Below, in pieces: positions 15,592-43,762 of a stretch of 64,000 bases of DNA. The stretch spans positions 248,001 through 312,000 of the forward strand of contig NZ_KB899090.1 of assembly GCF_000378045.1 (NCBI RefSeq). The letters are read 5' to 3'. The notes beneath the pieces were generated by a model that was given only the letters and a program-made list of their open reading frames with translations, had not been told where the DNA came from and searched no databases. The stretch is from Marinobacterium rhizophilum DSM 18822. GTDB taxonomy: Bacteria; Pseudomonadota; Gammaproteobacteria; Pseudomonadales; Balneatricaceae. Made by a program: the position numbers and the translations under genes. Position 1 is the first letter of the stretch. Each line of letters opens with the position of its first letter.

Positions 15592-15618
15592 AAAAAAAAG
15601 CCACTTCAAAGAAGTGGC
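15592..15618 (-). terminator. Intrinsic terminator of the tRNA array
   Basis: On the minus strand an 8-bp stem (GCCACTTC with GAAGTGGC, 3-base loop) is followed by eight T residues. The 5' arm of the stem contains the CCA end of the last tRNA-Asp, so the terminator hairpin and the tRNA 3' end overlap. Confidence 0.9.
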
Positions 15619-15691
15619 GGAACGGACGGGACTCGAACCCGCGACCCCCTGCGTGACAGGCAGGTATTCTAACCAACTGAACTACCGCTCC
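15615..15691 (-). tRNA. tRNA-Asp (GTC), copy 1
   Basis: A 77-base cloverleaf with the CCA encoded. The anticodon loop reads CTGTCAC (anticodon GTC), and the T-arm GGGTTCGAGTCCC is canonical. It is almost identical to the E. coli tRNA-Asp sequence as I recall it. It is the last gene of the array before the terminator. Confidence 0.97.
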
Positions 15692-15695
15692 GTTA

Positions 15696-15771
15696 TGGTG
15701 GGCGAAGAGGGGTTCGAACCCCCGACCCTCTGCTTGTAAGGCAGACGCTCTCCCAACTGAGCTATTCGCCC
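15696..15771 (-). tRNA. tRNA-Val (TAC), copy 1
   Basis: A 76-base tRNA with encoded CCA. The anticodon loop CTTACAA gives TAC. The acceptor stem starts GGGCGAA and pairs with TTCGCCC. Four bases separate it from tRNA-Asp copy 1. Confidence 0.97.
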
Positions 15772-15817
15772 ATAACGCTGGCTGTTAATACGACGTTTCA
15801 GCACTTTGAAACGAAGT
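15772..15817. repeat. tRNA-array spacer repeat, copy 1
   Basis: This 46-base spacer follows a tRNA-Val gene and recurs nearly unchanged at 16100-16145 and 16325-16370. It contains an imperfect inverted repeat (CGTTTCA ... TGAAACG) that is best preserved in this copy. The three copies show that the array grew by duplication of a Val-Asp-spacer unit. Confidence 0.85.
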
Positions 15818-15829
15818 CCACTTAAAAAG

Positions 15830-15930
15830 TGGTGGAATGGACGGGACTGAATCCCCGACCGCACCTGTGATAAGCTGACAGGCAGATTTCCAACCTGTGA
15901 CCCCAACACCAATTTTCTAGCTATCCACTC
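15830..15930 (-). pseudogene. Decayed tRNA-Asp copy
   Basis: On the minus strand the 3' half still looks like tRNA-Asp: the acceptor end CCATTCCACCA, a damaged T-arm (GGGGATTCAGTCCC in place of GGGTTCGAGTCCC) and a CTGCCTGTCA remnant of the anticodon arm. The 5' half is rearranged and lengthened (about 101 bases against 77) and cannot pair with the acceptor end except for GAGTGG. No cloverleaf forms, so it is a pseudo-tRNA between two intact units. Confidence 0.8.
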
Positions 15931-15942
15931 ACACAAAGCAAG

Positions 15943-16019
15943 TGGCGGAACGGACGGGACTCGAACCCGCGACCCCCTGCGTGACAGGCAGGTATTCTAA
16001 CCAACTGAACTACCGCTCC
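15943..16019 (-). tRNA. tRNA-Asp (GTC), copy 2
   Basis: Sequence identical to copy 1 over its 77 bases as far as I can compare, with encoded CCA. The decayed copy lies directly downstream on the transcribed strand, with no tRNA-Val between. Confidence 0.97.
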
Positions 16020-16023
16020 GTTA

Positions 16024-16099
16024 TGGTGGGCGAAGAGGGGTTCGAACCCCCGACCCTCTGCTTGTAAGGCAGACGCTCTCCCAACTGAGCTATTCGCCC
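16024..16099 (-). tRNA. tRNA-Val (TAC), copy 2
   Basis: Same 76-base sequence as copy 1, four bases from tRNA-Asp copy 2. Confidence 0.97.
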
Positions 16100-16145
16100 A
16101 TAACGCTGGCTGCTAATACGACGCTTCAGCACTTTGAAACGAAGT
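16100..16145. repeat. tRNA-array spacer repeat, copy 2
   Basis: Second copy of the post-Val spacer. It has a few base changes relative to 15772-15817, including one inside the inverted repeat. Confidence 0.85.
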
Positions 16146-16167
16146 CTTACCTTTCCACTTAAAAAAG

Positions 16168-16244
16168 TGGCGGAATGGACGGGACTCGAACCCGCGACCC
16201 CCTGCGTGACAGGCAGGTATTCTAACCAACTGAACTACCACTCC
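16168..16244 (-). tRNA. tRNA-Asp (GTC), copy 3
   Basis: 77 bases with encoded CCA. It differs from copies 1 and 2 by a compensated pair change in the acceptor stem (GGAGTGG with CCATTCC), so the stem still pairs. Its CCA end is part of a small CCACTT/AAGTGG hairpin like the other copies. Confidence 0.97.
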
Positions 16245-16248
16245 GTTA

Positions 16249-16324
16249 TGGTGGGCGAAGAGGGGTTCGAACCCCCGACCCTCTGCTTGTAAGGCAGACG
16301 CTCTCCCAACTGAGCTATTCGCCC
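16249..16324 (-). tRNA. tRNA-Val (TAC), copy 3
   Basis: Same 76-base sequence as the other Val copies, four bases from tRNA-Asp copy 3. Confidence 0.97.
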
Positions 16325-16370
16325 ATAACGCTGGCTGTTAATACGACGCCTCAGCACTTTGAAACGAAGT
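16325..16370. repeat. tRNA-array spacer repeat, copy 3
   Basis: Third copy of the post-Val spacer, closest in sequence to copy 2. Confidence 0.85.
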
Positions 16371-16401
16371 CTTACCTTCATACTTTACCACTTCAGAAAA
16401 G

Positions 16402-16478
16402 TGGCGGAATGGACGGGACTCGAACCCGCGACCCCCTGCGTGACAGGCAGGTATTCTAACCAACTGAACTACCACTCC
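16402..16478 (-). tRNA. tRNA-Asp (GTC), copy 4
   Basis: 77 bases with encoded CCA and the same acceptor variant as copy 3 (GGAGTGG). It is the first gene of the array after the promoter. Confidence 0.97.
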
Positions 16479-40664: not shown

Positions 40665-41618
40665 ATGCAAAACCAGCTGGAACAGTTAAAAGCCATTACC
40701 AGTGTTGTGGCAGATACCGGTGATATAGAGGCCATACGCCAGTTCAGGCCCGTCGATGCCACAACCAATCCATCGCTGCTGCTCAAGGCCGGGCAAAATC
40801 CCGCTTATCGCCCCCTGCTGGAACAGGCCCGGACCTGGGCACAGGACCTGGGTGGTGACAATCAGCACCAGCTCGGCAACATGACCGATAAGCTGGCCGT
40901 ACTTATAGGACTGGAAATTCTTAAGCTGGTACCGGGACGAGTCTCAACCGAAGTCGATGCGCGCCTGTCGTTTGACACTGACGCCACAGTCGCCCGGGCC
41001 AAAAAGCTCATGGACATGTACCAGCAGGCGGGGATCGACAGAGACCGCATTTTGATTAAGATCGCGTCCACCTGGGAAGGCATTCGCGCCGCCGAAATTC
41101 TGGAACGCGAAGGTATCAACTGCAACCTGACCCTGCTTTTCGGTTTCGCCCAGGCCCAGGCATGCGCAGATGCAGGCGCCTTCCTGATCTCGCCTTTCGT
41201 CGGCCGCATCCTCGACTGGCATCGCACCCGGCAACCCGACACCGATTTCGCCGGCGAACTCGATCCCGGCGTGATTTCGGTAACACGCATCTACAACCAC
41301 TACAAGAAGCATGACTATGGCACCGTTGTCATGGGCGCAAGCTTTCGCAACATTGGCGAGATTCAGGCCCTGGCCGGATGCGACCGCCTGACCATAAGCC
41401 CGGCACTGATGCAGGAGCTGGAAGCCACCCAGGCCCCGCTGGCACAACGCCTCAGCCCACTGACTGCCGACAGCCAGGACCCACGCACAGCACTGCTGGA
41501 ACGCAACTTCCGCTGGAACATGAACGATGATGCCATGGCGACCGAGAAACTGGCGGAAGGTATTCGTAACTTCGCCGCCGACCAGGTGAAACTGGAACAG
41601 CTACTGCTAGCACTGTAA
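40665..41618 (+). CDS. tal: Transaldolase
   Basis: Transaldolase links the pentose phosphate pathway and glycolysis by moving a dihydroxyacetone unit from sedoheptulose-7-phosphate. The 317-residue protein matches TalB in length, with [12 protein letters not shown] near residue 31 and the Schiff-base Lys132 in [11 protein letters not shown]. It follows dusA as in pseudomonads and converges with rssC. Confidence 0.97.
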
Positions 41619-41807
41619 AAGGCACCGCAGAGCCGTCAGGGGTGCAGCCACTGGAAACACAGCCGCAGGCAACCGATAAGCCAGGCGAATAGAATATTCG
41701 CCGCATGGAAAAACAGGTAGAGTAAAGCACCAGGTCCGCAATCGGCCTTCGGGCCTGTTGCGCACAATGAAGTCACCCCTGCTGCAAGCATAAAAAGCTT
41801 CGAGCAC

Positions 41808-41844
41808 AAAAAAGGGCTCTCTGGCATCTTGCCATTGAGAGCCC
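41808..41844 (-). terminator. Intrinsic terminator of candidate Rsm-type RNA
   Basis: An 8-bp stem (GGGCTCTC with GAGAGCCC) with a nested GGC/GCC pair is followed on the minus strand by six T residues. It could also terminate rssBC read-through. Confidence 0.85.
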
Positions 41845-41945
41845 CATGCCCAGCATCCTTGCCGGTCACCTCTCAAATCCGTGAGAAGTGAGTAGCTGAG
41901 TTCGCATCCTATCGTTAGGCCACATCCCTGTGATCTCAACCAGCA
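41808..41945 (-). ncRNA. Candidate CsrB/RsmY/RsmZ-type small RNA, about 138 nt
   Basis: Four GGA motifs lie 18-30 bases apart. Two are in clear hairpin loops: CACA-GGGA-TGTG (41921-41932), which matches ACAGGGAUGU of the CsrA consensus as I recall it, and TCTCA-CGGATT-TGAGA (41871-41886). A third sits in CCGGC-AAGGAT-GCTGG (41850-41865, with G-U pairing). The fourth (ATAGGATG, 41907-41909) is probably single-stranded. A promoter lies upstream and a strong terminator downstream. Size and layout match the RNAs that titrate RsmA/CsrA. No csrA/rsmA gene is in the window. Confidence 0.7.
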
Positions 41946-41951
41946 AGATCT

Positions 41952-41979
41952 ATTCTAGAGAGTTCGATTACAAAACCAA
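41952..41979 (-). promoter_or_regulatory. Promoter of candidate Rsm-type RNA
   Basis: -35 TTGGTT, 16-base spacer and -10 TAGAAT on the minus strand place the start near 41945. The -35 is imperfect, which fits an activated promoter. I found no exact GacA-type palindrome (TGTAAG...CTTACA) upstream. Confidence 0.5.
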
Positions 41980-42029
41980 TAGGACAAAGGCCTAAAATCG
42001 ACCAACCTCCTACCGGCTGACGACCCGAC

Positions 42030-42515
42030 TCAGGGATGGCACTCCAGGGTATGAACCAGATCCACGAATGCATCCCGATTCGCCTCATTCAAGCTCATGA
42101 GAACCTTGTGAGCCTCGATGATGCGATCTCGTACCGCTTCGTCGGACTCTTGCACAAACGGCAGTCGCTTGAGATCAACCAGGCTGGTTGGCATTGTTTC
42201 CAATAACAGAAATATACGCTCGAACCCCATGGTAAAGAGAATGCGCGTTATGTCTTCATTGGTCGACACGAGGGTTGGCGCCTCCAGGGACAAGCGGCTC
42301 GCACCCACTGCGAGCTTTGCTATCAATCCCAGGGAAGTGCTGTCAATGGTATCGGTTTCAGTCAAATCAACCAAAATATGTCTGACGTTCCCGGCCGCCA
42401 ACACCTGCTCAAGATGACGATCGAGTGTCGTACAGAGCGTGAGTCGCACTTCGCCCACGAATTTCAACACATAGCTATCGCCCTCTCGGGCAAAAAATAT
42501 CGAGCCTTCACGCAT
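42030..42515 (-). CDS. rssC: STAS-domain anti-sigma-factor antagonist, RssC-like
   Basis: The 161-residue protein begins with a STAS domain: GEVRLTLCTTLDRHLE, the HILVDLTETDTIDSTSLGL strand-loop with the phospho-acceptor Ser in DSTSLG, and a C-terminal helical extension of about 50 residues (RDRIIEAHKVL...). In pseudomonads the equivalent gene pairs with an RssB-type phosphatase that should dephosphorylate the STAS Ser. It overlaps the rssB-like gene by eight bases. Confidence 0.85.
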   Translation of the reverse strand: MREGSIFFAREGDSYVLKFVGEVRLTLCTTLDRHLEQVLAAGNVRHILVDLTETDTIDSTSLGLIAKLAVGASRLSLEAPTLVSTNEDITRILFTMGFERIFLLLETMPTSLVDLKRLPFVQESDEAVRDRIIEAHKVLMSLNEANRDAFVDLVHTLECHP

Positions 42516-43683
42516 CAGGGACGTCCCGGTACAAGGTCAAAATCGCAATATCATCCGGACAGCTGGCAGTACCCAGCACAGACTCCAGCAAATCATCAGG
42601 CATCACCACACCTGCCGCTACCAGCTCGCGCAAGCGCTCTTCACGCCGCTCCAGCGAACCCTCTTTAACCATGACCTCCAACACACCGTCCGAAAATAGC
42701 GTGAGTGTAAACGCCTCTTTCAAGTGTAGCTCGTGCTCATCAAAGAACGGCTCATCGAACAATCCCACCGGCATGCCCCGCCCGGACAAAAAGCGCGTAT
42801 CGCCCCCCTGACTCAGAATCGGCATGGGGTGATGACCGCCCACGGCATATCGGAGGGTTGAATTGCGCGCATCCAATATTCCGGCAAAAATCGTAAAATG
42901 CTTCCCAAGCCCCGTGTCGAGCAGTTCACGGTTTAGCGTATAGAGTGTGGAAGCCGGCGACAACTCAGACAATGGCGTATCGCGCCGATGCGCACGCAAC
43001 ACGCGATTCGTCATATTTTTTAGCAGTACCGTTACCAGCGCCGAAGACGCACCGTGCCCGGAGACATCGGCCAGATAAAACAGCGTAAGGTGGTCATCCA
43101 GCGGCGCCACATCGACAAAGTCACCGCTCAGCACCAAAGATGGCGTCAGGTCATAGGCAAAGCTAACACCGCCAATTGTCTGCCGCTTTGCCGGTAACAG
43201 GTTCTGCTGTACCTGCTGCGCAGCCATCTGATCCGAACGCAGCTCATCCAGACTACGCTCCAGGCTCTCACGATAACGATGAGCGGCTTCAAGCTGCGCT
43301 GCCCGACTTAAAAGCCGCGAAAGCGTCGCCACGAAAGCCTGCGCCTCGTAACTTAAACAGCGGTAGCTATATATATCACTGGCACCGGCACGAAGCCCAC
43401 TGAGCAGGTGAGCAGCATCCAGCTCCGGCACCAATGCCAGCACAGGCTTGGGATGAAAACGAATACAGAGATCACTCAGCGAGAATTCCAACGGCAACCG
43501 CTGCACATTAATCACCGCCAGCGAAAACTCATAGTGATCGAGCAGACTTTCAAGCGTTGAAGCGTCTGCTGCTTTCAGAATCTGCAGACGAAAAGGTTCG
43601 ACCTGCTCGCTTAGCTCAAATATTTGATCAATAAGCTGGGTGTCAGACTCTACCAAAAGAATCCGATGGCAGGGGTGACTCAT
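42508..43683 (-). CDS. rssB: RssB-like response regulator with PP2C phosphatase domain
   Basis: From MSHPCHRILLVESD the protein is 391 residues: a receiver-like domain (about 1-125), a helical linker and a PP2C/SpoIIE phosphatase (about 170-390) with GDFVDVAPL, LADVSGHGASSAL, FSDGVLE and a final CPDDIAIL. The receiver looks degenerate: the phospho-acceptor Asp is replaced by Asn59 in AVINVQR, and the conserved Thr and Lys are not evident. The phosphatase residues are intact. It overlaps rssC, and mlaA is upstream, as in the pseudomonad order. A start nine codons earlier (43710) is possible. Confidence 0.85.
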   Translation of the reverse strand: MSHPCHRILLVESDTQLIDQIFELSEQVEPFRLQILKAADASTLESLLDHYEFSLAVINVQRLPLEFSLSDLCIRFHPKPVLALVPELDAAHLLSGLRAGASDIYSYRCLSYEAQAFVATLSRLLSRAAQLEAAHRYRESLERSLDELRSDQMAAQQVQQNLLPAKRQTIGGVSFAYDLTPSLVLSGDFVDVAPLDDHLTLFYLADVSGHGASSALVTVLLKNMTNRVLRAHRRDTPLSELSPASTLYTLNRELLDTGLGKHFTIFAGILDARNSTLRYAVGGHHPMPILSQGGDTRFLSGRGMPVGLFDEPFFDEHELHLKEAFTLTLFSDGVLEVMVKEGSLERREERLRELVAAGVVMPDDLLESVLGTASCPDDIAILTLYRDVPDA

Positions 43684-43762
43684 AGAGCAGCCTGCGGTAG
43701 AAAAAGCCACATATTCATGAGCCGCACACTACGCCCATTACCCTTAAGTTGCAACGCAAAGA

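Follow-up and report, generated by a model that had tools for sequence, protein, structure and literature searches.

Several marine genera very probably keep a gene for a predicted CsrA-titrating small RNA behind their rssBC stress-regulation genes

RsmX, RsmY and RsmZ of Pseudomonas are RsmA-titrating RNAs controlled by GacA, and CsrB, RsmY and PrrB_RsmZ are Rfam families of this CsrA-titrating kind. The literature places a UvrY repeat centred at -183/-182 of E. coli csrB (PMC4682653) and reports the CsrB and CsrC RNAs of Marinomonas mediterranea with the GacA box TGTAAGN6CTTACA (PMC8523701). Two putative RNAs of this kind are mentioned for Alcanivorax (PMC9788540), and positions in PAO1 are listed for RsmV, RsmW, RsmY and RsmZ (PMC9308961). 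For Azotobacter and P. aeruginosa it has been proposed that RpoS degradation requires RssB and RssC, and Gac-Rsm is described as acting on RpoS stability in Azotobacter (PMC12923157). Our literature search found nothing on CsrA in Marinobacterium or Neptunomonas, gave no match for the literal box TAGGAATTTTTCCTA, and did not have Neptuniibacter among the matches listed.

The window is a 64,000-nucleotide stretch of the Marinobacterium rhizophilum DSM 18822 genome (5.36 Mb). Behind rssC it holds a stretch that, as judged from its sequence features, is in all likelihood the gene for a CsrA/RsmA-titrating small RNA (Table 1). A first-pass annotation, made from the letters of the window, had described here the promoter TTGGTT-N16-TAGAAT, four GGA motifs, GGA in the loops of the CACA-GGGA-TGTG, CGGATT and CCGGC-AAGGAT-GCTGG hairpins, and a six-T terminator. 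Each of these elements was located directly in the window sequence, on the minus strand and at agreeing coordinates, and the four numbers given for the GGA motifs (41925, 41907, 41878 and 41856) are the last base of each. The palindrome TAGGCCTTTGTCCTA is a fifth element that had been overlooked. Its family consensus is TAGGAA-N3-TTCCTA, and its centre lies at about -42, assuming a transcript start 7 nt downstream of the -10. An own promoter and an intrinsic terminator are thus present at the level of sequence; a simple promoter and terminator scan of 41600-42100 returned none of either and overlooked both elements.

Table 1. Positions of the predicted small RNA gene, its elements, its neighbours and the candidate regulator gene.
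Feature	Position	Strand	Remarks
rssB, response regulator with SpoIIE-type phosphatase domain	42508..43710	-	best NCBIfam NF045505 RssB, 254 bits, cut-off 700
rssC, STAS-domain anti-sigma factor antagonist	42030..42515	-	best NCBIfam NF045506 RssC, 185 bits, cut-off 250
Palindromic upstream box TAGGCCTTTGTCCTA	41980..41994	-	adjoins -35 on its upstream side
Promoter TTGGTT-N16-TAGAAT	41979-41952	-	
-35-like TTGGTT	41974..41979	-	located in sequence
-10 TAGAAT	41952..41957	-	22 nt from palindromic box
Predicted small RNA, ~138 nt	41808..41945	-	5' end inferred from -10
Hairpin CACAGGGATGTG (CACA-GGGA-TGTG)	41921..41932	-	GGA in loop
Weak hairpin or single-stranded site CGATAGGATGCG	41903..41914	-	contains GGA
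Hairpin TCTCACGGATTTGAGA	41871..41886	-	CGGATT loop, covarying stem
Hairpin CCGGCAAGGATGCTGG (CCGGC-AAGGAT-GCTGG)	41850..41865	-	covarying stem
Intrinsic terminator	41808..41844	-	stem 41844-41814, TTTTTT 41813-41808
tal, transaldolase	40665..41618	+	convergent neighbour
mlaA		-	also among neighbours
Diverged regulator, nearest UvrY relative in window genome	G000:C8:131218-131865		

The 140 nt from 41947 to 41808 (minus strand) fold with -59.7 kcal/mol (z = -4.96), and none of 200 shuffles was as stable. The GGA content of the window copy taken alone is not above chance: it contains four GGA, where shuffled sequences average 4.8, and 14 of 100 shuffles placed as many GGA in predicted hairpin loops as the two found here. 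Conservation is what sets the stretch above chance; several GGA in hairpin loops were found conserved across relatives.

The Rfam scan proposed with the first-pass annotation returned, at the gathering threshold and over the whole window, seven tRNAs and no small-RNA family. The RNA had been called a member of the CsrB/RsmY/RsmZ family, which holds for the kind of RNA but not for membership in an Rfam family, none being over threshold. When hits up to E = 10 were admitted in 41600-42150, three appeared, and the only Csr-type one was the hairpin of RsmV (8.1 bits, threshold 100), at 41921-41932. Five sister-RNA loci, the one on contig C7 not included, and 20 loci holding relatives were scanned as well, and a 5S rRNA was all that was detected. 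The seven tRNA genes form a repeated pattern at 15618-16478 of the window, minus strand. The host is a Marinobacterium relative and no pseudomonad. An origin from pseudomonads was rejected because the rssC-tal gap of P. aeruginosa PA7 (L117) has no such RNA and a plasmid search gave no match.

Seven genomes were compared within the genus of the window. The box was 83.5% identical, the -10 79.4% and the RNA 74.6%, against 50.0% for the stretch between the box and the -10. The flanks drift: identity is 33.6% from rssC to the box, and beyond the terminator it falls to values of 35.9% and 30.9%. Conservation in the genus is therefore confined to the box, the -10 and the RNA. The condition named as refuting the first-pass annotation, hairpins and GGA motifs lost in relatives while the DNA around them drifts, came out in favour of the annotation. 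By blastn, 5 of 57 genomes were matched, namely the window genome and four relatives within the genus. In three of these relatives the match stops with the final T of the terminator, and in one it goes 27 bases further.

The DNA behind rssC was read in 73 stretches, two of which are repeats of others (L089 of L037, L098 of L045). A locus was counted when the palindrome was followed 19-25 nt later by a -10 and there were a terminator-like end and at least four GGA, an arrangement found in 28 of the 73, so that these loci are partly selected for GGA, box and -10. The distance from box to -10 was 22 nt in 23 of them (the window locus included), 23 nt in one and 24 nt in four. For the alignment 25 loci were used; L089 and L062 were left out because they duplicate, or nearly duplicate, other loci, and L053 because it has diverged too far. 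RNAalifold returned two GGA-loop hairpins and the terminator from these 25 sequences, with changes on both sides in 16 of 21 pairs and 89.3% of cells pairing. The covariation score was 0.528 compared with 0.307 for shuffled alignments, none of 500 shuffles was as high, and each slid version of the structure was lower on every covariation measure.

The claim that the GGA loops are conserved was borne out by the same alignment, in which the stems covary and GGA occurs at five places in 25, 25, 25, 24 and 22 of the 25 sequences, these places being 7 to 13 columns wide and the loci having been selected for at least four GGA. The CGATAGGATGCG region (13 columns) has GGA in all 25, and the top loop of the terminator has it in 22, with AAGA in the window copy. 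Over the 28 RNAs, the mean number of GGA in loops was 3.82 versus 0.67 in shuffled sequences. A protein-coding reading of the overlapping 110-aa and 77-aa ORFs on the minus strand is not supported. Among the 28 relatives, the maximal open stretch per frame ran from 13 to 47 codons and lay in different frames, though some copies are open throughout one frame.

A covariance model, R1, was built from the 25-sequence alignment. It scored the window RNA, one of its 25 building sequences, at 113.7 bits (E 1.6e-25). At E <= 0.1, R1 matched 102 places in 60 of 99 genomes of the family, for which we use the name Nitrincolaceae on the assumption that this is GTDB usage, and in 11 of its 16 genera. Genera with few or no matches were g2, g3, g5, g9, g10, g14 and g15. 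In the order, 7 of 293 genomes were matched, all of the same family, under strict filters (E <= 0.001) that weak relatives may escape. The sister RNAs of the window genome, described below, are not detected by R1.

The location behind rssC is shared by several genera. In five genera, 28 genomes have an R1 match at a distance of 54-286 nt from the end of rssC, downstream and on the same strand, with seven in the genus of the window and five, three, seven and six in the four others, and in one further genome it lies 1,344 nt behind; this tally was drawn from 30 R1 rows and 29 rssC rows chosen as near each other on one contig. The rssC gene was found in 81 of the 99 family genomes, and in many of them, including genomes of other genera, it is present without the RNA behind it. 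In genus g16, three of nine genomes have neither the RNA behind rssC nor any R1 match. At one locus (L212, G030) the RNA is present twice in tandem behind rssC, and both copies have a box of their own. In the window copy the box starts 35 nt behind the rssC stop, and in 12 of the 28 loci the box begins with the stop codon TAG itself. The phosphatase/STAS neighbours of the first-pass annotation were confirmed as the adjoining genes rssB and rssC, whose products have the Pseudomonas RssB and RssC models as their best in NCBIfam, both below cut-off. In PAO1, rssC presumably lies away from the positions listed for RsmV, RsmW, RsmY and RsmZ. The suggestion that this place is new for rsmX/Y/Z agrees with its absence from those PAO1 positions as listed in PMC9308961 and with the empty gap in PA7.

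In six genomes of the genus, a pattern of box plus -10 fitted to the window RNA occurred a single time, at this RNA; the seventh genome had two occurrences, and the extra site leads into another GGA-hairpin RNA. By DNA similarity, this other RNA had matches in six of the seven genomes, including two in the window genome (the second weak, E 0.007) that both carry the box. Of two more weak matches, L280 is without the box and the other was outside the fetched set. A wider search of the seven genomes for the box gave 33 sites versus 5 for the reversed control, and 30 of the 33 were inspected. All but one of the 16 exact sites are followed by 150 nt holding 4 to 9 GGA, in most cases, by eye, with a GC-rich hairpin and a T-run at the end; sister RNAs L279 and L284 have a poor T-run after their last hairpin. 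Of 14 sites with one mismatch, four were judged to lead to such RNAs and ten not, two of the ten holding 4 and 6 GGA. The window genome has four box-linked RNAs, which are the window RNA and those at C15:861, C5:724 and C7:53118. At the start of contig C5 (L281, L284), the sister RNA lies between a 5S rRNA gene and an ORF that by eye resembles moaA.

Of the 102 R1 matches, 57 were fetched, and 56 of these are copies other than the one immediately behind rssC. A loosely written box was present 40-60 nt upstream in 38 of the 57, as against 0.26 of 57 in shuffled upstream sequences, and 19 were without a box at the expected distance. Five g11 genomes (L193, L198, L199, L202 and L205, from G085, G074, G062, G094 and G029) have three to four tandem GGA RNAs within ~1 kb, some of the copies without their own box, and rssC was not found in these genomes. 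The palindrome also precedes or adjoins genes for proteins of ~370 aa (L299:1673-2785, L306:232-1362 and G002:C1:992828), and the box regulon may for this reason include protein genes.

The GacA box TGTAAGN6CTTACA was not found upstream of the 28 RNAs (133-260 nt). The best sites had 4-6 mismatches, with a mean of 4.9 compared with 4.5 in shuffled sequences, which is no better than chance, and the best sites upstream of three sister RNAs had 3 to 4 mismatches. With E. coli UvrY as query against five genomes, GacA of PA7 was 60% identical and the best proteins in the window genome and in Neptuniibacter 41% and 42%. This diverged regulator has one match each in 87 of the 99 family genomes (E <= 1e-40), some just 40-43% identical. 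It has an insert in the receiver domain and reads SPKTVHAHR where UvrY and GacA have SPKTVN(S/T)YR. In an NCBIfam scan of two proteins, its best model was UvrY/SirA/GacA at 175.6 bits (cut-off 280), compared with 329 bits for PA7 GacA. A GacA adjoining uvrC was looked for and rejected, as the 8 kb surrounding uvrC in the window genome contain no response-regulator ORF of at least 150 aa; the best UvrY relative is ~11 kb from the uvrC match. In both genera examined, the regulator gene is preceded by one encoding 157 or 149 aa (L270:3213-4385; L271:2735-3952), and the 157-aa protein had no Pfam or NCBIfam match. That the diverged regulator binds the box is a guess. The box may have a likeness to the LetA box of Legionella.

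We propose that transcription of the ~138-nt RNA would be switched on by a response regulator binding TAGGAA-N3-TTCCTA beside the -35; this regulator is probably a GacA/UvrY relative that has diverged strongly. GGA in the hairpin loops of the RNA would then bind CsrA dimers, by which CsrA-repressed mRNAs would be freed; CsrA is encoded in all seven genomes of the genus, and the canonical one scores above its NCBIfam cut-off. Because at least three other RNAs stand under the same box in the genome, the window RNA would be one of a redundant set, paralleling RsmX/Y/Z of the pseudomonads. Read-through from rssBC may also produce it, since the box is so close behind the rssC stop and no terminator was seen between the two in the window copy. 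The linkage of the RNA to rssBC further suggests that CsrA titration may be coupled to RpoS turnover. More broadly, Csr of the Nitrincolaceae may have been rewired, so that a diverged GacA-like regulator and a palindrome of its own drive several titrating RNAs per genome (four in the window genome), one of them built into the end of rssC, in some genera into its stop codon, which would tie CsrA titration to genes for RpoS degradation. We put this reading forward tentatively, with slightly less than even confidence.

Several other explanations were weighed. The stretch could be only a terminator region between rssBC and tal in which GGA motifs occur by chance, as the unremarkable GGA count of the window copy would allow; conservation, covariation and GGA in loops across genera speak against this, the first two leading us to reject it, and we hold it to be extremely improbable. 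It is unlikely, if less remote, that the RNA is chiefly the 3' UTR of the rssBC message, processed into a CsrA sponge without a regulated promoter of its own. RsmW behind PA4570 is a precedent for such an RNA (PMC9308961), little lies between rssC and the RNA, and the box overlaps the stop codon in the 12 loci noted above. However, the nearly fixed distance of box and -10 points to an own promoter, and the same box stands before many relatives away from rssC and before the sister RNAs.

A quite plausible alternative, toward which we lean somewhat less than we lean away, accepts the CsrA-titrating RNA but sees the box as the site of some unrelated protein, such as a BvgA-like or LuxR-type regulator, and not of a GacA relative. 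The half site of the box resembles the BvgA heptad, given as TTTCCTA in PMC4314077, and of the ~370-aa proteins encoded near box sites one has a LuxR-type GerE domain and one is without a Pfam match. Against this stands the regulator found in most of the family genomes, whose best NCBIfam model is UvrY/SirA/GacA, if far below cut-off.

With these RNAs, the marine group would gain Csr/Rsm RNAs that Rfam does not detect, and the succession of box, 22 nt, -10 and GGA hairpins is usable as a search signal. If the diverged regulator does bind the box, a global regulator and its binding site would have changed together while the RNA output was kept, which makes a testable case. As far as our literature search reaches, the kind of RNA is known, and the set of RNAs, its box and its place behind rssC are new.

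The window RNA resembles RsmX, RsmY and RsmZ in its size, several GGA hairpins, intrinsic terminator, multiple copies per genome and palindromic upstream box. It differs from them in matching no Rfam family, in having TAGGAA-N3-TTCCTA and not TGTAAG-N6-CTTACA, and in its locus behind rssC. With RsmV of P. aeruginosa (RF04320) it shares the hairpin CACAGGGAUGUG, which agrees with the model consensus at 12 of 12 positions, although the score is far below threshold and RsmV is listed at 1011621-1011812 of PAO1 (PMC9308961). M. mediterranea is likewise a marine gammaproteobacterium, with CsrA-type RNAs described as being under a UvrY-like regulator (PMC8523701); unlike the window RNA, its CsrB and CsrC are reported with the GacA box. 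RsmW, from the PA4570 3' UTR (PMC9308961), is also a GGA-rich RNA directly behind a coding sequence, whereas the RNAs of the window type have a conserved box and -10 between them and rssC.
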